From: a virus
IMG/VR virus record: IMGVR_UViG_3300032070_000028
Location: 1-25,225 of that record
DNA: 25,225 nt
Reading direction: 5' to 3' (one strand)
Shown: one piece after another, positions 5,067 to 20,863 of the stretch
Position numbering within the stretch: position 1 is the stretch's first letter
Layout of the letters: the number at the start of each line of letters is the position of its first letter
Notes under the pieces: model-generated
Database searches by the model: none
Told to the model about the DNA's origin: nothing
Seen by the model: only the letters and a program-made list of their open reading frames with translations
Position numbers and translations under genes: made by a program

Positions 5067-6035
5067 TTATGCCGACGTAGTATCGACGGCGATCGAGAAT
5101 GAATTGTCTATCGCCCGGCCCGCGATATCCAGCGTTTCTACTCCGTTTTGCTCTGATCGTTTCTCTGATTCCACGGATGCCGTAGTAATCGCAAAGGTGA
5201 TTTTGTTCGGAGCCGTACCGCATACGACCGACATCGCGCCGGTCGTGCCCGCCAGAATCGCAGACGGAATGTTCCCGACCGATGGCAGTTCACGGTAAAT
5301 TTTCGCCGACCACTTCACCTGATATTTTCCGATAAGCGAGCAGCCGAGGCCGGATATAGTTTCGAGGCAATTGATTGTTGGCAATGCTTCGAGTCCGCCC
5401 TCGAATTTCATTGAAATCGGAACATATGCAGAACTTCCGAGGATGGAAATCGTTGCCAATTTGAGGGCCGGGGGAATCGCGGTTGATCGTGTCACCGTCG
5501 GCACAGTCCCCGCGACCGGAGCCCCGCAGGATCGCCCTTTCCCGGTGAATGTGCCTTTAGAGACGCCTTTGTCGAAATCAAGTTCAATCGACCAATCGAA
5601 AATTAAATTTCCGATTTTGTCAATGATGCTTCCCGACGTGTCCAAATTGCCGGAGAATCCCCACAGAGTTGCGGCGTTCCATTCGGATTGTTTGTTTGTG
5701 ATCGCGTACGAATAGATATGCGTCTCTATGGACTCTTTGAACCCGGCACATTTCAGCAGTGTCGTGAATTGCCCTGCGGAATCTTGGGCGCCGCCGGTGC
5801 GAAGCGGCATAGCCAATTCGACCCCGGCGTATATCGGGCCGATGATGGATTTGTTGTTAGGGAACCCGGCGCCGACAAGCTCAATCGGATTGACAACAGG
5901 ATCAAAACTAATCTTGGGCGACTCGGCTTCGATTATGTCCGTCCCGGCCAGAGACGTTTCCGGCGTGTCGAAAACGGATTGTACTTTGCAAAGTACAGTT
6001 TCAAGCTTTTTCACTTGGCGTACTGGTGCTGCCAT
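5067..6035 (-). CDS. Major tail tube protein
   Basis: The 322-residue product is Gly/Ser/Thr-rich and beta-rich, with no membrane segment. It lies just before the chaperone pair, where lambda gpV is encoded. It starts with MAAPVRQVKKLETVLCKVQS, and the segment with ELVGAGFPNNKSIIGPIYAG resembles the N-terminal part of other tail tube proteins of this size. Tail tube subunits stack as hexamer rings around the tape measure. The ATG has an AGGAG site 6 bases upstream and begins one base after the stop of the gpU-like gene. At 322 residues it is longer than gpV (246), so an extra surface domain is possible. The assignment rests on order and composition. Confidence 0.78.
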   Translation of the reverse strand: MAAPVRQVKKLETVLCKVQSVFDTPETSLAGTDIIEAESPKISFDPVVNPIELVGAGFPNNKSIIGPIYAGVELAMPLRTGGAQDSAGQFTTLLKCAGFKESIETHIYSYAITNKQSEWNAATLWGFSGNLDTSGSIIDKIGNLIFDWSIELDFDKGVSKGTFTGKGRSCGAPVAGTVPTVTRSTAIPPALKLATISILGSSAYVPISMKFEGGLEALPTINCLETISGLGCSLIGKYQVKWSAKIYRELPSVGNIPSAILAGTTGAMSVVCGTAPNKITFAITTASVESEKRSEQNGVETLDIAGRAIDNSFSIAVDTTSA

Positions 6036-7214: not shown

Positions 7215-9539
7215 TTACGGAGCCAGCCGTGTTCGCGCTGACCGGGTAGATAATGTGTCAATGTACGCACTTGACTTGGCAATCGTTCTCAATCGTAAAT
7301 AATACGCTTTGTCAGGCTGCAAAAAGTTTGCGCGCAAGGTGTCTTTGAGGACGGTTTTTGTCCATGCCATGCTGTCCCGAGTCTGCCAGGTCATGCTCGT
7401 GAGCGATCTGATCTGCAGATACGCCTTTACCGAGTCGCAGGACATTTTCGCCAGCGTCGAGCAAGGAACTGAGAGCGCATAGGAAAGCCGTTTTGTGACC
7501 CCGTAGAACAGCGCCAGAGTATCGTAGGTGCATGAGGCCCGATACACAATCGTCGTCGTATCCCGGTTCCCCGGCAGATACCCGGTATCGCTCGTGACCG
7601 TGTACACGTTGATCGCCCCCGCAGCGTGAGCAGGCGCCACCACGCGCAGGATGGAATCTGAGCGCAGGATGGAATAGCTGAAATCGGACAGGTCGAATCT
7701 TACCTTACACGCGCCGTCACGCCCGAAATATTTGCCGGTGATCGTGACCGTGTCCCCGCCATCCGCGCTGATCGTGTCCGGGGAAATGCTGGCGATCCGG
7801 GGAGCTGGCCAGACGAAGCCGTAATTATGCCCCATGTTGTAGCTGGTCGTGTCCGGCGTGCAGGCCGCGCCAATATTGTAGTGGTCCTGAACATTGAGCA
7901 CCGGGCTTGCCGCTGTGGGAAGCGAATCGTATGTGTAAACTCCCGGAGTATCCGAGCGCCATATAGCAGCGGGCCAGTCGCCACTGGTGTAATTCTGAAT
8001 CGCCAGAGTGTCGTGCGCGTGCCCTGTCCACGTTTTGCCACTGGTGAGAATCAGACGCGAGATTGAGCGGCAGTGTTCGCCGAGCCACGTTTTTATATTA
8101 TGCAAAGGCCAAATTACCATAGAAGTGGGTACGCCTTTGCTCCCTTTCCAAGCTATCTTAAGCATTGCATTATTTGTAAATGATAAAGTATTATTCAATA
8201 GCAATGTATCCGTTGGCACTGTGCTATTTGACAATAGCGATCCAGTTAATGTTAGAACATATCCATTTTGATTAAATCTTCCAGATGTTAATATCAGAGT
8301 ATCCAAATATACTTGTCCATTCATGGTTAGTTTTTGAGTTGTTGCGCAATTTAATTCAACATCCTGAAATGTTCCATTTACCCCGCCTGTAATGGATTTT
8401 TCCGTTGTACCGCCTGTAAATAATACCTTTCCACCTTCTTGCCATGTAGATACCATGGTTCCTGCTCCAGCACCATCGCTAAAATTAAATCCGTCCTTGA
8501 CTGTCCATTGCGATGTTCCAAAATTGAATGTTTGCAATCCGGTAGTGACATTATTTGTATGTGTAAGTACCGAACATGCGACTGCTGAATTTAAGAAGTT
8601 CCATGTTGCGGAACCTGTAGTAACGCCTTGTCCCCCATCTAACATCAACCCTTTGTTGGTGGAAACAGAATATCCATTTGTATTCAGGAATAAATTTGGT
8701 ATAGATGTTCTTCCTGACATGCTTATCCCTGTCGCACCTGATCCGGAATTGCTTAAATTACCTGCTAACCCAATTGTGTCAGGGTTTTGTGAACCTGTCA
8801 TGTACCATTTAAACGTTGCGGTTTGCATTGTCAATTCGGGTATTGTCACATTTTTACCTGCAACGATTATGCCTACCTGTAAAAACGCTGATGTATTATT
8901 AATAACCGTTCCGGGAGAGTAGCTCATTAATGATCCGGAGGTATTTAATGAAGTCAATATCCCTGACGCACCTGAGCAATTCCACGTACCTCCATGCAGC
9001 TTTAGAGGATTTGTTGCTTTCCCTTGTATGGTTAGTTGGCCAGCACATACCATGTCCGTTATTTTGCCTGAATCTGCAATGTCAAGCGATAAAATGGCTA
9101 TCGCTTTACGTATCGTCAACGAATCATTGCCATGCATTTTTACTGCAAGATTCGCCAAATTAGAACCAAGCGTTCCGGTATTTGTGATCTTTATCGCTCC
9201 ATATCCCGTACCTGTTTTTGTCAAAGACGGTGTCCCGTCGGCAGCTTGCAGCAGCCCGGAGCTTGCCCAAATCGCGCTATTAGTAACTGTCAACTCATTA
9301 CCCACAAAGTAAAAGCTATCCGTTGATCCCCAATAAATTGCCGAAACGGTATCCGCAACATCGAGGGAGCATTTTCCGGCACCCATGACGCAGGAATCAT
9401 TTATTGTTGGCGGAGTGTCCCAATTGCCAGCCGTGCTCCATAGGTGATTAACTCCACCATAGGTCCATGTGCAGGTCGCACCCCACGCCCCCGCGCAGAG
9501 CGGGAGCAGCAGGGAGAATGCAAAGATTATTTGCTTCAC
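7215..9539 (-). CDS. Exported beta-helix/IPT adhesin-like protein
   Basis: The 774-residue product starts with GTG at 9539 (GTGA overlap with the preceding gene). It has a clear Sec signal peptide: a Lys at residue 2, a hydrophobic core (IIFAFSLLLPL) and a likely cut after about residue 20 (WGA). Residues about 25-560 are Gly/Thr/Ser/Asn-rich short strands (for example LTMNGQVYLDTLILTSGRFN) typical of beta-helix or passenger domains. An IPT/TIG domain follows at about 580-665 (PRIASISPDTISADGGDTVT), then a fibronectin-III-like end. There is no autotransporter barrel, LPXTG or visible secretion tag. Codons of the middle part (about 8.1-9.4 kb) are much richer in A and T than either flank, suggesting mosaic origin. 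A signal peptide is odd for a virion part, so I infer a lysogenic-conversion or host-surface protein. A tail fibre remains possible. Confidence 0.7.
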   Translation of the reverse strand: MKQIIFAFSLLLPLCAGAWGATCTWTYGGVNHLWSTAGNWDTPPTINDSCVMGAGKCSLDVADTVSAIYWGSTDSFYFVGNELTVTNSAIWASSGLLQAADGTPSLTKTGTGYGAIKITNTGTLGSNLANLAVKMHGNDSLTIRKAIAILSLDIADSGKITDMVCAGQLTIQGKATNPLKLHGGTWNCSGASGILTSLNTSGSLMSYSPGTVINNTSAFLQVGIIVAGKNVTIPELTMQTATFKWYMTGSQNPDTIGLAGNLSNSGSGATGISMSGRTSIPNLFLNTNGYSVSTNKGLMLDGGQGVTTGSATWNFLNSAVACSVLTHTNNVTTGLQTFNFGTSQWTVKDGFNFSDGAGAGTMVSTWQEGGKVLFTGGTTEKSITGGVNGTFQDVELNCATTQKLTMNGQVYLDTLILTSGRFNQNGYVLTLTGSLLSNSTVPTDTLLLNNTLSFTNNAMLKIAWKGSKGVPTSMVIWPLHNIKTWLGEHCRSISRLILTSGKTWTGHAHDTLAIQNYTSGDWPAAIWRSDTPGVYTYDSLPTAASPVLNVQDHYNIGAACTPDTTSYNMGHNYGFVWPAPRIASISPDTISADGGDTVTITGKYFGRDGACKVRFDLSDFSYSILRSDSILRVVAPAHAAGAINVYTVTSDTGYLPGNRDTTTIVYRASCTYDTLALFYGVTKRLSYALSVPCSTLAKMSCDSVKAYLQIRSLTSMTWQTRDSMAWTKTVLKDTLRANFLQPDKAYYLRLRTIAKSSAYIDTLSTRSARTRLAP

Positions 9540-12516: not shown

Positions 12517-12881
12517 CTGGAAAGCCCCAGGCGCCAGGTTGCAAGGTCCTGCCGGATAATTGCCGCAACATGAAACACAACATTTGCGGCATCGCCAATA
12601 TCTAATGGTATTTCAACCTTATCACCCTTTTCGGTAACCTCGGCGATTCCATCGGTCGCGTCCGTCGAAATAACAATTTCCCGATCATAGCGCGCGATCT
12701 GAGATCCCGGGCCGCCATAATTCGACAGGCCCGTCTGCTTGATATTCCTGCGGGAAATGACGGCCCTGATTGATTTCGCCGCTTGCCCGGAAGCAGTATA
12801 TGAAACGGCCTCCGAAAAAAACGGATTATCGAGAAAGCAAGCTTTAAATTCCGCTTGCGCTTGTTCTTTCGTGTAGCTCAT
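12513..12881 (-). CDS. Head-tail joining protein, gpFII-like
   Basis: The 122-residue protein has the features of the small phage attachment (gpFII) family. It has a helical N-terminus, a central SYTASGQAAKSIRAVISRRN stretch and a short beta-rich C-terminal part. In lambda, FII lies between the capsid genes and Z and forms the ring that receives the tail; here it lies directly before the gpZ-like gene. The ATG overlaps the TGA of the glycosyltransferase gene (ATGA), so its translation appears to depend on that inserted gene. This is a good family candidate, though from pattern and place only. Confidence 0.65.
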   Translation of the reverse strand: MSYTKEQAQAEFKACFLDNPFFSEAVSYTASGQAAKSIRAVISRRNIKQTGLSNYGGPGSQIARYDREIVISTDATDGIAEVTEKGDKVEIPLDIGDAANVVFHVAAIIRQDLATWRLGLSR

Positions 12882-13780
12882 TTGTTTTGCCGCTCAAATA
12901 CTTTATTCATTCGGTCGATTTGTTCTTGAAAATGGTCTTTTGCGGCATCTTCCACGCCGTTTTCGACGGAAGTCCTGTCCTGATATTCTTTAATTATTTT
13001 GGCCGCGCGCGCCAATATTTGGTCGATTCTGGATTCGTTTGTGCTCGGATAATCGCCTTCGAAGGGGTCGCAATAGCCAATTAATGACAGGAAGTCGAAA
13101 ATAAACAGGACATTTGGCAAATAATGACAATGATACTTACCAATGCGGAATGATTGAAACTCCGTTGTATCGGGAAGCTTCTGGCTTTCAATTATGGTAA
13201 GTTTTGAATTGCGCTCGGCTTTATCAATCAGCTTTGCATTATCCAAATAGCCATAATGCAAAACATTAATCCCCATTGCAACAATCGGGATATTGAGCCT
13301 TTGACAGCTTTTCAAAACAGTCTCATGCAATCTGTTTTCGAATTTTATTCCGCAATTGTTCCGGAAAAACTTGATTTGCGGAAATGGCATATCAAAGATG
13401 ATGTCCCCGATTTTGTTTGCTCCGACATTGTTGTTCAAAAACTGGAATGCGACCGGAGCGTCAGGGTACGATTCTATGCATATCCTGATTTTTTTTTGCT
13501 CCATGATGTCGATCCGTTCATCGGCATCAATCCAGAGCACCCAATCGCATGCGGCATGCGAAATGCTGCAATTTCTCGCATCCGCAAAGCTGTTATTCCA
13601 TTGGTAGGAAAAGCACTTTACTTTTTCGCTTGCGGTTTTTGCTATTTCGAGAGTATCGTCGGAGGAACCGGTATCGCAGACAATAATTTCATCGGCCAGG
13701 GGTTCTATGTTTTTTATGCAGTCTCGAATCCGCCCCGATTCGTTTTTGACTATCATGCAAACAGATATTGTTCCCGACAT
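12878..13780 (-). CDS. Family 2 glycosyltransferase (GT-A fold)
   Basis: The 300-residue protein begins with the canonical GT2 pattern ISVCMIVKNESGRIRDCI, followed by ADEIIVCDTGSSDDT (about 30-43) and the metal- and sugar-nucleotide-binding DAD at 85-87 in VLWIDADERID. A second region (FRNNCGIKFENRLHETV, about 138-154) corresponds to the conserved acceptor side seen in SunS-type and TPR-linked GT2 proteins. No membrane helix follows, so it is a soluble enzyme. A perfect 11-bp hairpin separates it from the decoration-protein gene, and AAGGGA lies 6 bases before its ATG. It overlaps the gpFII-like gene by ATGA and so belongs to the structural operon. Likely acceptors are a virion protein or a host glycan; the sequence does not say which. 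Confidence 0.88.
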   Translation of the reverse strand: MSGTISVCMIVKNESGRIRDCIKNIEPLADEIIVCDTGSSDDTLEIAKTASEKVKCFSYQWNNSFADARNCSISHAACDWVLWIDADERIDIMEQKKIRICIESYPDAPVAFQFLNNNVGANKIGDIIFDMPFPQIKFFRNNCGIKFENRLHETVLKSCQRLNIPIVAMGINVLHYGYLDNAKLIDKAERNSKLTIIESQKLPDTTEFQSFRIGKYHCHYLPNVLFIFDFLSLIGYCDPFEGDYPSTNESRIDQILARAAKIIKEYQDRTSVENGVEDAAKDHFQEQIDRMNKVFERQNK

Positions 13781-13837: not shown

Positions 13838-14473
13838 TCAGGAAGCAGCCCGATTTACGACATAAGAAAACTTGTGATCGGTTGACGGATTGCCGGACAA
13901 CACGAGGGTTGCGACGCCGTCGGCCACACTCAGCTTGTTTACCGTAACGGGGCTTGCTCCGACGCTTTCGAGCGCCAGAGTCATCTTGTCCGTGCTCAGG
14001 AGCCCGCTGATTGTTATCAATTCGGTCGCGTCGCCGCCCTCGGTCGTTTTGGTTCCGGCCGCGACAGTGATGTAAGCGGGCTTGATCCCGGAATCCAAAT
14101 GCTCAAGTGAAATCTGGGCGGCATTCGGATATTTGAGAATTTCGACCAGCACATAGCCGGCTGTTGCGGTTCCAGCTTCGACCGCCGTACCGATAAGCCA
14201 GCCGTTGGCGGGGGCAGTGATACAGACCTTGTCAGTGTCAGTATTGTAGTAAACCGGGTTGCCCTGCGCGATCGTGACGCCGTCATCGATCGAGAACATG
14301 AATCGGCCGCCGCGGTAAAACGTATTCGCAACGTTTATGGCTTGCGTTGTCAACGGAATCAAGATTCCGAGGGTTGCTGATTTGACCGGTGTCCAGGCGG
14401 TTGTCGCCGCCGTATGGGCGACCCTGATCGTCTCAAGGTCTTCGTATTGCCCTTTCAATTCGCATACGCTCAT
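13838..14473 (-). CDS. Capsid decoration protein, DUF2190-like
   Basis: The 211-residue product has a DUF2190-type N-terminal domain: GILIPLTTQAINVANTFYRG at about 36-55, then a beta-rich segment with GNPVYYNTDTDKV and LIGTAVEAGTATAGYVLVEI. This family is found next to major capsid genes and often acts as a capsid stabiliser or cement protein. A second beta domain of about 75 residues (VAAGTKTTEGGDATELITIS to the end) follows and may be exposed on the particle. The ATG is preceded by AAAGGGGTG, a strong ribosome-binding site consistent with high-level expression. Its place directly after the capsid gene matches that of lambda gpD relatives. Confidence 0.72.
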   Translation of the reverse strand: MSVCELKGQYEDLETIRVAHTAATTAWTPVKSATLGILIPLTTQAINVANTFYRGGRFMFSIDDGVTIAQGNPVYYNTDTDKVCITAPANGWLIGTAVEAGTATAGYVLVEILKYPNAAQISLEHLDSGIKPAYITVAAGTKTTEGGDATELITISGLLSTDKMTLALESVGASPVTVNKLSVADGVATLVLSGNPSTDHKFSYVVNRAAS

Positions 14474-14561: not shown

Positions 14562-16097
14562 CTACGATGACGCGCCGTCGTTGTAGACCATGCCGCGCCA
14601 GTCCGGGATGCCGATTCCCCAATCCATGAAAATGTCCCATGAAATGCCCAGGGCTTCGCCGATTCCGGAAGGTTGATTTCGCAGCGTCGGCGTACGGTTT
14701 CCGGCCAGGTAATAAACGACAAATGTTTCAATGACATTCGAATCGGTCGCGAGATACCATGCATTGGCTTTGCTGCCGGCAGTCAGCAGGGCCTGCAGAT
14801 ATGCATCGTTGACTGGCGTCAAACCGGTATATGGATTGTAAACGCCAGCCATGGTTTTTGCGGGATCAAACGGCGTATTCAGAAGCTGCATGACGGTGAG
14901 CCGCTGATTCGTTCCGGTGATCAGATAGCGCGCCGGCGCATTGGTGTACTGCTGGACTGACGTTTTATCGGGCTTGGGCAGCTTCATCATCATTAGCTTG
15001 GCCTCGGCCGCGCCGATTGTGTTGACGGAAGGAATGCCCGACGTCTGGACCAGGTTGACGTGCGTTGCTGCATTGAATAAATACAAGCTATCCTCGGCCA
15101 TGGTCGGACCCTGCAGCGTATTCGCCGTAAGCTTGTCGTAAACATCCTTGTTGATACGACGCGCAACCGAATTCATGATCGCGGCCGGAATGCGCGCAAA
15201 GGCATTCAAATCATCGTTGATGACTGCCTGCCGGGTGAGGGAGAATTTCTTTCCCTTGGTGTCGATGGATACAGTTTCTTTCTTGTCCGAGAAACGGCCG
15301 TCCTTGAACGCCATGCCTTCAGGAATGTCGTCAATGTCGCTGAAGTTCGACATCTTGACCAGGTTCGCGGTTTTGAAGTCCGGTACTTCGCCTTCGCCGC
15401 ACCATGTACGGAACGTCACCGGCGCCTCGACAAAGCCCTTGAGCAGCGACTTGTTGGCAACGTCGGCCAGAATCGCGGTCAGGTCGCTTGAACCCTGCGA
15501 AGCCATGTGAAACGCTTCCTGGGCGAGATCTGCCGGCAGAAGGGAATGAATCCGGTTGTCGGAAATCCGGCCCTGCTTTTTAAGGCAGATACGAATCAGG
15601 CCCTGGATTGTTCCGGGGGCTTCGGAGCCCTGTTTTCGCACTTCGGCAATGACTTCTGGCCGTTTTTCGACTCCGGCAGCCACCGCCATCGATTTCGAAG
15701 CGATATCGCGGAATTTGTCCGACTGATCGGCGGTAGGAATGATTGCCGACGGCATCGCGTTTGCAACGCGATCGAGGATTTCTTTCCGGCATTCATCCAG
15801 AGTTTTTTCGCTGTTGATAAGCGAGCTCTGAAAATCTTCCGGAAGGTTGAATTTTTTTGAGAGCGCGACAATCTCGCTTACGCGAGCGCGCTCCGCCGCT
15901 TTGGCTTCGTTGCGCTCTTTATCCGCTGCGGCTGCAATCTGGCTCGGAGTTTGTCCGGCAGGGACCTGCGCTGCAGGGGCAACGGGGGGGACCTGGGCTG
16001 CCGGCGCCGCGGCCGGGGCGTCGGTCAAGCTTTTTCCGCAATGTCCGCAGAATGGCATTCCGGTAGCAACTTCTTTTCCGCAATGCTTGCATCTCAT
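14562..16097 (-). CDS. Internal in-frame start: zinc ribbon + scaffold + major capsid product
   Basis: Inside the fusion gene, an ATG at 16097-16095 is preceded by AAGGAG (16111-16106) with 8-base spacing, better than the site for the full-length start. It is in frame with no stop between. The 511-residue product would begin MRCKHCGKEVATGMPFCGHC (Cys 3, 6, 17, 20) and include scaffold and capsid regions without the protease. Lambda uses the same trick when Nu3 is made from a start inside C. This would let many capsid subunits be made for each protease. It is inferred from the site alone, so the actual ratio of products is unknown. Confidence 0.6.
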   Translation of the reverse strand: MRCKHCGKEVATGMPFCGHCGKSLTDAPAAAPAAQVPPVAPAAQVPAGQTPSQIAAAADKERNEAKAAERARVSEIVALSKKFNLPEDFQSSLINSEKTLDECRKEILDRVANAMPSAIIPTADQSDKFRDIASKSMAVAAGVEKRPEVIAEVRKQGSEAPGTIQGLIRICLKKQGRISDNRIHSLLPADLAQEAFHMASQGSSDLTAILADVANKSLLKGFVEAPVTFRTWCGEGEVPDFKTANLVKMSNFSDIDDIPEGMAFKDGRFSDKKETVSIDTKGKKFSLTRQAVINDDLNAFARIPAAIMNSVARRINKDVYDKLTANTLQGPTMAEDSLYLFNAATHVNLVQTSGIPSVNTIGAAEAKLMMMKLPKPDKTSVQQYTNAPARYLITGTNQRLTVMQLLNTPFDPAKTMAGVYNPYTGLTPVNDAYLQALLTAGSKANAWYLATDSNVIETFVVYYLAGNRTPTLRNQPSGIGEALGISWDIFMDWGIGIPDWRGMVYNDGASS

Positions 16098-16760
16098 AAT
16101 ATTTTCTCCTTGTGGAGTTGAAGGTTTTATTATCGATTCTATTGATTTGGCCCCGAGCAACATGCAAAAAACAGCCTCGGGCAGATTCATATTTTTGAAA
16201 GATTCCTCACTGTGCTCTGCCGGGTCAGTGCATTCGTCAATAAACCCATGCAGAAACGCATCCTCTCCGGTCAACCACGTTTCATCATCCATCATCTGCG
16301 AGATCTCTTCATCGGTTTTGTCCTTGGCATGGGTTTTGTATACCTTTATCGCCTCCTTTTTCATTTTATCAAGCAATTCCGCATCTTTTTGGAGCTGTTT
16401 AGAATCGCCGACGGTATAGACAAACGGGTTATGAATCATCAGAAAGGCGTTGCTTGGCTGCGATATGTGGTCGCCAGCCATGGCGATAATCGACGCCATT
16501 GATGCTGCGATGCCGTCGATATGAACGGTTTTGTACGCGGAATGCTCATGCAGCAGGTTGTAAATTGCAAAGCCGTCCGTGATGGAACCGCCGTTGCTGT
16601 TGATTCTGATCTTTATGTTCTTTACTTCTCCGAATCCATCCAGTTCCCGCTTGACATCCTTCGCTGTAATGCCATATCCGATTTCGTCATAAATCAATAA
16701 TTCGGCCGATTTGGCAGCGGCATTGTAGCTGAACAGTTTTTTTCTATTCGTCATCAGCAT
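14562..16760 (-). CDS. ClpP-like prohead protease / zinc ribbon / major capsid fusion
   Basis: The start is the ATG at 16760 (MLMTNRKKLF), which has GGGGG 5 bases upstream and overlaps the portal gene by 17 bases. The 732-residue polyprotein has four parts. Residues 1-200 are a ClpP-fold (S14) protease with RINSNGGSITDGFAIYNLL, Ser87 in AASMAS and His110 in MIHNP. Residues 222-245 form a CxxC-CxxC zinc ribbon. An Ala/Pro-rich linker and a charged helical scaffold-like region follow to about 430. The rest (from about 460, FVEAPVTFRTWCGEG) is an HK97-fold-type capsid subunit. Such fusions would mature by self-cleavage during prohead assembly. An internal ATG with its own ideal Shine-Dalgarno sequence lies at 16097, so a shorter capsid-only product is likely too. 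The zinc ribbon in the joint is unusual. Confidence 0.9.
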   Translation of the reverse strand: MLMTNRKKLFSYNAAAKSAELLIYDEIGYGITAKDVKRELDGFGEVKNIKIRINSNGGSITDGFAIYNLLHEHSAYKTVHIDGIAASMASIIAMAGDHISQPSNAFLMIHNPFVYTVGDSKQLQKDAELLDKMKKEAIKVYKTHAKDKTDEEISQMMDDETWLTGEDAFLHGFIDECTDPAEHSEESFKNMNLPEAVFCMLLGAKSIESIIKPSTPQGENIMRCKHCGKEVATGMPFCGHCGKSLTDAPAAAPAAQVPPVAPAAQVPAGQTPSQIAAAADKERNEAKAAERARVSEIVALSKKFNLPEDFQSSLINSEKTLDECRKEILDRVANAMPSAIIPTADQSDKFRDIASKSMAVAAGVEKRPEVIAEVRKQGSEAPGTIQGLIRICLKKQGRISDNRIHSLLPADLAQEAFHMASQGSSDLTAILADVANKSLLKGFVEAPVTFRTWCGEGEVPDFKTANLVKMSNFSDIDDIPEGMAFKDGRFSDKKETVSIDTKGKKFSLTRQAVINDDLNAFARIPAAIMNSVARRINKDVYDKLTANTLQGPTMAEDSLYLFNAATHVNLVQTSGIPSVNTIGAAEAKLMMMKLPKPDKTSVQQYTNAPARYLITGTNQRLTVMQLLNTPFDPAKTMAGVYNPYTGLTPVNDAYLQALLTAGSKANAWYLATDSNVIETFVVYYLAGNRTPTLRNQPSGIGEALGISWDIFMDWGIGIPDWRGMVYNDGASS
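16106..16111 (-). promoter_or_regulatory. Internal ribosome-binding site for capsid product
   Basis: AAGGAG on the minus strand, 8 bases before the in-frame ATG at 16097. It is a consensus Shine-Dalgarno sequence in the middle of an open frame, placed exactly at the protease-to-capsid joint. Confidence 0.6.
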
Positions 16761-18330
16761 TTTGGCCCCCATTTTCAAGAATCGAGGAATTTTGATTTTT
16801 ATTTGGATTCGGAAGCAATTCCGTAAGGCCCGCTTGTTCAATGAGCTCTTTTTCTCTTTGCCGCTGCTTCAGGATTGCCAGATAATTGGTCCCGCGCATT
16901 GCGCAAAGCTGCTGCAGCGTGACGATACCCATCTGGTAAAGGGTTTCCATTGCCTTTGCGTCCTTAAAAGGATCTACCCAGTCTTCCCCCTCCGGAAGCC
17001 AGAAGCATTGCGTATAATACCAGCGATTTTTTTCGAAATCCGGCAGAGAAATCGGAAGGCGTCCGGCTAAAACTTCCCATTCAACAAACTTTTCCCAGCG
17101 ATGCTGGCAGCAGGTTTTATAAAACCATTTGTAAAGAGTCCGGAAAAACCGTGAATCGGCGATTTTGTTTGTGCGGGCGGATGAAAAATTCATGCCCTCA
17201 AGATCCGAGCTCAGAAGCTGGTAAGAAAATCCGAGCCCGATACCGATCATCATGACAGTCAGTTTGACCAGTTCGCCGAATGTCTCTGATAGTTTGTCGT
17301 CAAGCTGAATCGCTTCTGGTTTTTCCTGCGTCCGAATCATCATCCCCTGTTCGAATGGGGCATAATAATCGTCGTCGTCCTGTTCGGTTGCAAGGTCGTC
17401 GAACGCCGCTGCGTCGCGCCGCTTTGTCCAGATGCCCATGCGCGAGAGCGCGCGCGATTGATACATCTTGTCCTGAAAAAGCTGCTGATTGTCCCAAATA
17501 TGCGGCAATACATGAGTGAGCCACGATAGCCCCAGATATTGTTCTGCTTCGGACTGGTAATAATGAACACTGACATTTTTTGCCGATCGTGGGGTCTGTT
17601 CGCCAATGATATGGAAACCCGTCGGCTCCATGAACGAATTGCGCGCTATTCCGTGCAGAATTGGGCTTGCCGGCATGGCCTCGGATGAATTCCCGTAATA
17701 ATTATCCTTCGTGAAATCCAAACAGGTGGGCTTAACAATTTGAAAAGCAAAGGGCAGCATGCTGCCATTGCGGGAGCGGACTGTATTTATCAGGGATGAA
17801 CCGTAGGTGATGATCGTCTCAAGTTCCAGGCTTTGCGCCTGGGTCATTGTCATTCGTTCATTGCCGGTTCGCATGCCTTCATCATTGAATCGGTCCCAAT
17901 CGCGGGCAAGGATTTCGTTTACGTTCTCAATTGCTTCGCCGTCTGGATTCACAACGGCAGGAAACGGCTTTAGGCCCGCCCCGACCGTGAATGTGCGCAG
18001 CACCTGCAAAGCCCGCTTGGCAATCGAATCGGTCCGGATTGCGAGCTCCGCGCGGGCGCAGATATATGCAAAATCAGAATTGATAATGGATGTTGCGGTT
18101 TTAAGAGCGGTCGGCCAGTCGCCGCGCAGACGCCCATTGTCGGCACCGGGCGCATACATTTCGGCAGAACGAGATATACCGGCGGCCAGGCCGCGCTTGA
18201 AATAGGCTTGCTTTAACTGTCGGAGGTTCTCGGCGCGAGTAGATGCGGAAGGACGGCTTTTCCATAGTGAGGAAAAACCGCGTTGTAGAAATGATAGATC
18301 GCGAGAAAGTTTGCTTCTATTGGAAGCCAT
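16744..18330 (-). CDS. Portal protein, lambda gpB family
   Basis: The 528-residue protein has the hallmarks of lambda-type portals. These include an early LRGDWPTALKTATSIINSDF stretch, RTDSIAKRALQVLRTFTVGAG, an LETIITYGSSLINTVRSRNG stretch, and later GIGLGFSYQLLSSDLEGMNF followed by SSARTNKIADSRFF. It forms the dodecameric portal at one vertex, through which DNA is packaged and ejected. The C-terminus is polar and low-complexity (PNPNKNQNSSILENGGQNAD). The ATG lies inside the end of the gpW-like gene (14-base overlap), and the fusion protease gene starts inside its own 3' end. Order W-B-C is as in lambda. Length is close to lambda gpB (533). Confidence 0.92.
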   Translation of the reverse strand: MASNRSKLSRDLSFLQRGFSSLWKSRPSASTRAENLRQLKQAYFKRGLAAGISRSAEMYAPGADNGRLRGDWPTALKTATSIINSDFAYICARAELAIRTDSIAKRALQVLRTFTVGAGLKPFPAVVNPDGEAIENVNEILARDWDRFNDEGMRTGNERMTMTQAQSLELETIITYGSSLINTVRSRNGSMLPFAFQIVKPTCLDFTKDNYYGNSSEAMPASPILHGIARNSFMEPTGFHIIGEQTPRSAKNVSVHYYQSEAEQYLGLSWLTHVLPHIWDNQQLFQDKMYQSRALSRMGIWTKRRDAAAFDDLATEQDDDDYYAPFEQGMMIRTQEKPEAIQLDDKLSETFGELVKLTVMMIGIGLGFSYQLLSSDLEGMNFSSARTNKIADSRFFRTLYKWFYKTCCQHRWEKFVEWEVLAGRLPISLPDFEKNRWYYTQCFWLPEGEDWVDPFKDAKAMETLYQMGIVTLQQLCAMRGTNYLAILKQRQREKELIEQAGLTELLPNPNKNQNSSILENGGQNADDE

Positions 18331-18805: not shown

Positions 18806-20863
18806 TCATATGCGCGAAAAATATCCGCCCCTATGGCTGAACCTTCGCGCTGGGTTTAATATTTCACGCTTCTTCTGTATGTCAACTTCGCTTTTTTCGG
18901 GCTTTTTTGGCGCATTTCCGGCCATTTCTTCAGGGTTTTGGTTCCCTTTTTGAGCAATTGAACGTTGTATCAAGGTGTCATCGACATTTGGCCGGAATAG
19001 TATTTTGTCAAGATTTAATAGCTTTGCAGATGCAAATGCAAGATTTAAACAGCTTCTATAGTGGTCGTTTGGCCCTTTAATCCATGTCGTGACGCGCTTC
19101 CCGTCCTTCGTTACCTTGTCAAGATGAAAATGCTGATTTACCTGCTTTAAAAAATCGCTTCCTACATCAATGGGCAAAAACCAGTCGGCCCCTTCCAGGA
19201 GTTTTCCGACCTGATCGCTCAGTAATTCAGATTGTCCCAGATAAAATTCTCCGTCGCCTGAGTTAGTTTTTCTCAGGTCTGGCTTTCTGTAATCGACCTG
19301 AGTCAATCCTACATACGGGTCCAGCCAGTGCAAACGCTCGCAGATAAAATCCACATCTTCCGGGCGGTGCCCCCCGCGATCAATGAATCCGTGCTGGATT
19401 CTCATTTCCAACCCGTTTTTTCTCAGCAGCGGTTGCGTATAAATCCCAGATACGACTTTCTTAAAAACCGCATAGCGGTCCTTGTAATCGACCATTGGGC
19501 AGTGAATCATGTCGTGGCGGATCAGGCGCCAGGCGAAATACTTCATCCATCCGATAATCGCATAATAAAACCCATTGTCCTGCGAGTCAATTCCGATCGT
19601 TAAAACTAAAACGTCATCAGGAATTCTGGCCGTTTCGCCGTATTGACAATACGATTTATCCTTATGGGCTTCCAAATAATTAATATGCAGCTGCTGCGAT
19701 TTCAATTTCCAGTAACGACCCATTGTTTCCGTCTGATATCCGAGCATTTTAATGGGATCGTTCTTGCTTTCAAAGAATCGCGCCAGGCATTCCCAGAATG
19801 GATAGGCAGGATCAAGCAATTTCGAAGCATTGAAGCAGATCGCATCATATGATCTGCTTTCCTTTTCGACAACCGTTCCGTTTTTCCGGACTTCATCCGC
19901 TTTCTGGTCGAAGTCATCATTTTTATAATCAACCTTTGCCCAGACCATATCTTTTTCCATGTCCCCGCGCGCGCTTTCCTGTATTTCACAGTGACAGAAC
20001 GGACATTCATAATAAACGGCGTCCGATTTCATCGCGCGAATTTTTTCCGGTGATTTATCAATTTCTTTTTCAATTGCAGGACGCATTTTTATCTGGCTAT
20101 CGGTCAGGACCTGGTAAGTCCCGCAATGCGGGCATGGCATATACGCCTGCACAATTTTGGTTCCCGATTTAAAAACCTCCCGATATATATAATCGCCTAC
20201 CGCAAATGGCGTTGATTCGGCTATGAATATCTGGCCGCCTTTCTTTGTGTACGCGCCGCCGCGGCCCCGGATCATATCTATCGGGTCATATTCAACCGTC
20301 GGCCATTTCCCGAGTTCTGAACAGATAGCCATGCCGGCCGGGAACGTCGACAGCGTTGCTGGATTCTGCGCGCTCCCAACGCGCCAGAGGGAGGACTTCA
20401 GCAGAATATTGTCCATGGTAAGATTGTCCTCGACTCCATCCCATAAACCGCGCAGACAATCATTATCCTGGATCATGGTTTTTATCCGGACCTTAAAAAC
20501 ATCCTTCACCGTTTCATTGCGATCGTAAACGACGATTCCATTTGTCCTGATTATGGTCATGCCGTAATACATAACGCAATCGGCCATGGTGCTTTTACCC
20601 ATTTGCGGCGGGAACAGATAATAAACGCTGCGCCAGTCATGAATGGCGTCGACCATAGGGACCTGCCAGGGGAATAATCGCAGCCGGCCAGGGTACACAT
20701 ATGCGCGATTCAAAACGATATTCTGCTGTACCCACTCCGATACTTTGGGCCGCGGGCGGATTGTAAACGCTTCATGCTCCGATGCTGACAATGCGTGAGA
20801 ATGCAAAACTTTCGGAAAATGAAGATCTATCCCCTGCATTATCCCCTGCATTATTCCATGCAT
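18806..20863 (-). CDS. Terminase large subunit, GpA family
   Basis: The 685-residue packaging motor has an N-terminal ATPase with the Walker A-like PPQMGKS (85-91) after the conserved LRLFPWQVPMVDAI, and a coupling region with GMAICSELGKWP (about 178-187). Two CxxC pairs (CPHC 244-247, CPFC 287-290) form the zinc insert typical of GpA. A C-terminal nuclease region starts with the metal-binding LTIGIDSQDNGFYYAIIGW. Length is close to lambda gpA (641). It cuts concatemers and drives DNA into the prohead. The start overlaps the small subunit stop as TAATG. The first residues carry a short tandem repeat (MQGI twice after MHGI), giving several nearby ATGs. Confidence 0.95.
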   Translation of the reverse strand: MHGIMQGIMQGIDLHFPKVLHSHALSASEHEAFTIRPRPKVSEWVQQNIVLNRAYVYPGRLRLFPWQVPMVDAIHDWRSVYYLFPPQMGKSTMADCVMYYGMTIIRTNGIVVYDRNETVKDVFKVRIKTMIQDNDCLRGLWDGVEDNLTMDNILLKSSLWRVGSAQNPATLSTFPAGMAICSELGKWPTVEYDPIDMIRGRGGAYTKKGGQIFIAESTPFAVGDYIYREVFKSGTKIVQAYMPCPHCGTYQVLTDSQIKMRPAIEKEIDKSPEKIRAMKSDAVYYECPFCHCEIQESARGDMEKDMVWAKVDYKNDDFDQKADEVRKNGTVVEKESRSYDAICFNASKLLDPAYPFWECLARFFESKNDPIKMLGYQTETMGRYWKLKSQQLHINYLEAHKDKSYCQYGETARIPDDVLVLTIGIDSQDNGFYYAIIGWMKYFAWRLIRHDMIHCPMVDYKDRYAVFKKVVSGIYTQPLLRKNGLEMRIQHGFIDRGGHRPEDVDFICERLHWLDPYVGLTQVDYRKPDLRKTNSGDGEFYLGQSELLSDQVGKLLEGADWFLPIDVGSDFLKQVNQHFHLDKVTKDGKRVTTWIKGPNDHYRSCLNLAFASAKLLNLDKILFRPNVDDTLIQRSIAQKGNQNPEEMAGNAPKKPEKSEVDIQKKREILNPARRFSHRGGYFSRI
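20824..20863 (-). repeat. Short tandem repeat at terminase large-subunit start
   Basis: The 12-base unit ATGCAGGGGATA occurs twice in a row, preceded by a diverged copy (ATGCATGGAATA), so the protein starts MHGIMQGIMQGI. Each unit supplies an ATG preceded by a G-rich GGGGATA, so initiation could occur at any of the three. Confidence 0.6.

Follow-up and report, generated by a model that had tools for sequence, protein, structure and literature searches.

The window analysed here, the 25,225 bases of IMG/VR record IMGVR_UViG_3300032070_000028, carries a lambda-type head gene in which protease, scaffold and capsid form one frame with, very probably, two translation starts: a short precursor would build most of the shell, a long form would carry the protease in, and a zinc ribbon would cap the scaffold. 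The second start is strongly supported by the conservation of a Shine-Dalgarno (SD) sequence and in-frame ATG over a diverse family of fusions, from which its use in cells is predicted. The features on which the analysis draws are the following.

18806-20863, minus strand: large terminase, gpA type (Pfam GpA_ATPase, 1.4e-24)
16744-18330, minus strand: lambda-family portal protein (Phage_portal_2, 2.5e-33)
14562-16760, minus strand: protease-ribbon-scaffold-capsid fusion gene, 732 aa, 79.7 kDa (translation, Pfam, NCBIfam)
16227-16643, minus strand: ClpP-like (S14) protease domain, residues 40-178 (Pfam CLP_protease, 1.7e-28)
16106-16111, minus strand: internal SD sequence AAGGAG, 8 nt before the ATG (sequence; family conservation)
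16095-16097, minus strand: internal ATG, start of a predicted 511-aa, 55.1-kDa capsid precursor (sequence)
16026-16091, minus strand: Cys4 zinc ribbon, residues 224-245, with Cys224, 227, 238 and 241 (Pfam Zn_Ribbon_1, 25.6 bits)
15948-16025, minus strand: Ala/Pro-rich linker (translation; low confidence in the structure model; unalignable with locus L107)
15543-15947, minus strand: helical scaffold (delta-like) region, precursor residues 51-185 (predicted helices)
14583-15530, minus strand: HK97-fold major capsid domain, residues 411-726 (Phage_capsid_4, 9.2e-46; Foldseek)
13838-14473, minus strand: head decoration (cement) protein downstream of the fusion gene (Phage_cement_2, 25.3 bits)

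The frame is open from 14562 to 16841 on the minus strand, and its ATG at 16760 gives the 732 codons. The protease domain scores above the cut-off of NF045542, and the codons of Ser87 (16502-16500) and His110 (16433-16431) are both invariant in 13 aligned fusions. In the scaffold region, a conserved R...I helix stands out, with its Arg and Ile nearly invariant among the aligned fusions. The window capsid was not matched in a PF05065 profile search because its family is PF25209. The initial annotation had described one frame with a ClpP-like protease (Ser87, His110), a Cys4 ribbon, a scaffold and a capsid, which translation, Pfam and alignment bear out; it had also placed AAGGAG at 16106-16111 and an in-frame ATG at 16097 at the joint, correctly in every coordinate, and the 511-residue reading frame from 16097 was recovered by translation.

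The structure of the precursor was predicted with AlphaFold2. A run from 3 sequences reached a pLDDT of 40 and was replaced by one using a 35-sequence alignment (rows from the phages collection left out), which gave a mean pLDDT of 87.6. The resulting model starts with the ribbon (pLDDT ~90), continues through a low-confidence linker into a long scaffold helix (51-82), and ends in the capsid domain; its best PDB matches in Foldseek are the D3 and HK97 capsids (E ~1e-8).

The protease-capsid fusion itself is already known, as NF045540 and PHROG 133. The window gene has the features of the ClpP-like fusion type, namely an S14 domain with N-terminal Ser and His and an HK97-fold capsid in the same frame. 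A PHROG 133 match covers the fusion protein end to end (1.7e-138), and NF045540 aligns over residues 19-728 with 455.7 bits (E 3e-136), which is below its cut-off of 475 and thus makes the window a divergent relative kept outside the NF045540 model itself. Identity to the known fusions of these two families is ~30-35%. By tblastn, the fusion was found in Fels-1, Gifsy-2, mEp460, mEp213, cdtI, F10, MD8 and others; those of Fels-1, Gifsy-2, mEp460, F10 and MD8 have the protease-scaffold-capsid order in one frame, as in the window, with an internal SD-ATG at the same joint. Such fusions have been described for MD8 (PMC8508860) and for Rhodobacter phages (PMC8601537), and the passages describing them make no mention of an internal start. 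None was reported for such fusions in the literature searched, a weak negative given the short coverage of subscription journals.

The surroundings are those of a lambda-type head region. Upstream of the fusion gene lie the small and the large (gpA-type) terminase, a small frame at the position of lambda W and the lambda-family portal, whose gene shares its last 17 nt with the beginning of the fusion. The head genes of lambda are ordered Nu1-A-W-B-C/Nu3-D-E, and the order in the window is the same with C, Nu3 and E merged. Within the head-gene cluster, directly downstream of the cement gene, there is also a family-2 glycosyltransferase gene (12878-13780, minus strand; PF00535, 3.8e-18), the product of which might modify the capsid or decoration protein. 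Elsewhere in the window, positions 7215-9539 (minus strand) encode a protein of 774 residues that contains an IPT/TIG domain and has no PHROG match.

We considered the internal start in the window on its own terms. The pattern AAGGAG-N4-9-ATG has a single match on the minus strand of the window and three on both strands, with ~1 expected. The internal SD has a duplex energy of -8.5 kcal/mol with the anti-SD, and an equally strong SD arises in 36% of synonymous-codon shuffles of the window, so that taken alone it is unremarkable; the internal ATG is likewise ordinary in its predicted RNA accessibility. With 97% identity and no change around the joint, the very close relative L001 is uninformative as a test of conservation. 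It is the family, and not the window by itself, that makes the case for the internal start. As a separate observation, L001 is nearly identical to the window over most of the fusion gene, with strong divergence at the extreme 5' end and in one patch inside the capsid domain (residues ~540-587; window 15140-15000, minus strand), the latter of which may mark a part of the capsid that has recombined or changes fast.

For the family survey, we collected 138 ClpP-capsid fusions, all selected for one uninterrupted frame that extends through the capsid domain. They formed 43 clusters at 75% identity and 19 at 50%. An SD core was defined as GGAG, AGGA or GAGG before an in-frame ATG, and the joint as the protease/scaffold boundary. 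An SD core with an in-frame ATG was present at the joint in 42 of 43 fusions, compared with 34 of the 879 in-frame ATGs that lie outside the joint in these genes. With all joint ATGs counted and no best pick, the comparison became 51/139 versus 34/879 (odds ratio 14), and among the 19 clusters at 50% identity 24 of 66 joint ATGs versus 18/387 (odds ratio 11.7, p 7e-12); as the surveyed sequences share ancestry, these survey figures are not strict probabilities. The mean anti-SD energy at the joint was -7.12, against -5.38 ± 0.31 in synonymous shuffles, none of 200 being as low; for the 19 clusters it was -7.71 against -6.42 ± 0.49, with one of 200 as low. Among other stretches of equal length, 7-8% were as strong as the joint. 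One fusion, L205, has only a weak SD at its joint. The peptide flanking the joint Met varies (QGENI, KEFAH, PKGES, PEGS, GGT) while the SD stays, which indicates that a nucleotide signal rather than a peptide is conserved. By these comparisons, the SD-ATG at the joint occurs far beyond chance across the family, and the predicted internal start is a rule for protease-capsid fusion genes and no peculiarity of the window.

The alternative that every part is made as a single polyprotein has to be weighed against this recurrence. All parts do lie within one open frame, and in P2 and lambda a single gene serves for both protease and scaffold (PMC8508860). Full-length fusion alone would then be translated, the protease would cut itself out and equal the capsid in amount, and the SD-like sequence would be incidental or a pause site. 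This leaves unexplained why an SD-ATG recurs at one joint in nearly all of these divergent fusions while the residues change, and why it is present in most fusions with an unrelated protease and in lambda (see below); we judge it improbable. Lambda also offers the precedent for another alternative, in which the internal start makes free scaffold only and the long form is the main source of capsid, since the lambda protease gene contains, in the same frame, the coding sequence of the free scaffold Nu3 (NC_001416). The surveyed frames continue through the capsid domain, and any internal initiation there would include the capsid protein; the sequence nearly excludes the free-scaffold reading, to which we give hardly any credence. 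Besides the fusion, the gene probably also yields the capsid precursor alone, from its internal start. A scarce long form and an abundant short form, as the initial annotation proposed, would fit this two-start arrangement; against a short-form excess, the long-form start (GGGGG, canonical core absent) has no clear disadvantage in duplex energy, at -8.4 versus -8.5 kcal/mol.

We compared the window with systems outside the family. The fusions of an S78 (U35) protease (NF045541, PHROG 617/4523; RcMamaDuck, Stenotrophomonas S1, VP882) have the same layout and, in most of those examined, an SD-ATG at the joint. Fusions to a related capsid in L226-L229 and L233 have it at or near the same joint, and it is present in VP882 and ep3; at the joint of the cyanophage S-LBS1 fusion it was looked for and was absent. 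These fusions differ from the window in their unrelated protease, and the capsid of one, L255, also belongs to another family (PF05065). In FP_Epona, an unfused homologue, a separate capsid gene has a strong SD, TAGGAGGTA, before the ATG at the equivalent point.

In lambda, as in the window, the portal gene overlaps the protease gene, and a strong in-frame SD-ATG lies within the protease frame ahead of the scaffold. In gene C this is AGGAGGG-ATG, the strongest of its internal sites, located at codon 309 directly in front of the scaffold. In the lambda record NC_001416, this strong site lies at position 5342, and the RefSeq nu3 start at 5132 is without a strong SD by the measure used (positions 1343 and 1133 of our locus L241, respectively). 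The lambda protease is of S49 type, whereas that of the window is ClpP-like (S14), and the lambda capsid protein E has a separate gene, its nested product being scaffold alone, whereas the window frame continues through the capsid domain. With HK97 gp4/gp5 the window shares the predicted capsid fold, and the HK97 capsid protein likewise carries its scaffold as an N-terminal domain; unlike in the window, protease and capsid are in separate genes and there is no ribbon. Read most simply, these sequence comparisons suggest that a scaffold(-capsid) gene once started at the joint ATG and would have retained this start when the protease gene was joined to it in one frame.

In contrast to the internal start, the ribbon is a rare variant. 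The initial annotation had called both the extension of the nest through the capsid and the N-terminal zinc ribbon unusual. The former view did not hold, as fusions of protease, scaffold and capsid already make up a named family and the internal start is present in nearly every one surveyed; the latter did, since among all ClpP fusions found the ribbon occurs only in the window and L001, in L107 and in L188. Of the two features for which it had proposed a survey of homologous fusions, the SD-ATG is kept at the joint and the ribbon is confined to one clade. The window, L107 and L188 are 44-55% identical and form that clade in a maximum-likelihood tree (support 99/98). Upstream of the internal Met they read CAAGGAG-N8-ATG, AAGGA-N7-ATG and AAGGAGG-N4-ATG, respectively, and the ribbon begins 1-2 residues past this Met in all three, the position expected for an N-terminal module; the predicted N-terminus of the window precursor is MRCKHCGKE.

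One might suppose that the Cys4 motif is a functionless remnant or a disulfide motif and no zinc-binding ribbon, the window score in Zn_Ribbon_1 (PF13240) being barely over the cut-off (25.6 versus 25 bits) and most relatives living without a ribbon. However, L107 (28.5 bits) and L188 (26.1 bits) are above the cut-off as well, both keep the four Cys and the CGKE...FC pattern despite an unalignable linker beside them, and the ribbon is modelled with a pLDDT of ~90. We regard this supposition as rather unlikely, and the ribbon as a real, rare variant on the fusion with predicted zinc binding.

A scan of IMG/VR for the SD-ATG-ribbon pattern gave at least 80 loci. Among the matches listed, most were unrelated genes with the ribbon Met close to the start of the frame, and one besides the known clade was an S78-type fusion, L255 (9769-7745, minus strand), with a Cys4 motif, MEKCEFCGKDLAEGTLCGC, directly behind AAGGAG and an internal ATG. 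The spacing of this motif differs from that of the window ribbon and it has no Pfam ribbon match, which makes it a lead for convergence and not proof. It is conceivable, though we hold it only tentatively, that ribbon caps arose at least twice, in the ClpP-type clade to which the window belongs and in the S78-type L255, just behind an internal start, as a metal-dependent device that would set scaffold tip contacts or procapsid docking and be removed on maturation. Separately, the ClpP head protease encoded by L009 (2965-4206) is not fused to a capsid; its protease domain is directly followed by a longer Cys4 motif (CGACGKG...CPHCG), at which there is no start codon.

In the two-start model that we favor, initiation at 16760 would give a minor protease-scaffold-capsid protein and initiation at 16097 the 511-residue ribbon-scaffold-capsid precursor that would form the bulk of the shell. 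The long form would co-assemble with it via its scaffold and capsid parts, and these shared parts would thereby carry the protease inside the procapsid. The protease would then remove ribbon and scaffold, letting the shell mature. The ribbon would be a small folded cap at the N-terminus of the scaffold, most likely joining the scaffold tips or docking them inside the procapsid.

What is new here is a family-wide survey of the internal SD-ATG at the protease/scaffold joint. The ribbon clade adds an unusual predicted metal-binding element on a tailed-phage scaffold, and this small, putatively zinc-binding knob at the front of the precursor is rare and was new to us. The public records examined annotate the long protein alone, and the N-termini and masses of capsid proteins in this family are therefore probably mis-stated. 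The survey yields a testable rule: where protease, scaffold and capsid are fused, phages retain a second start at the joint. If used, such a start would remove the dosage problem that comes with a protease on every capsid subunit.
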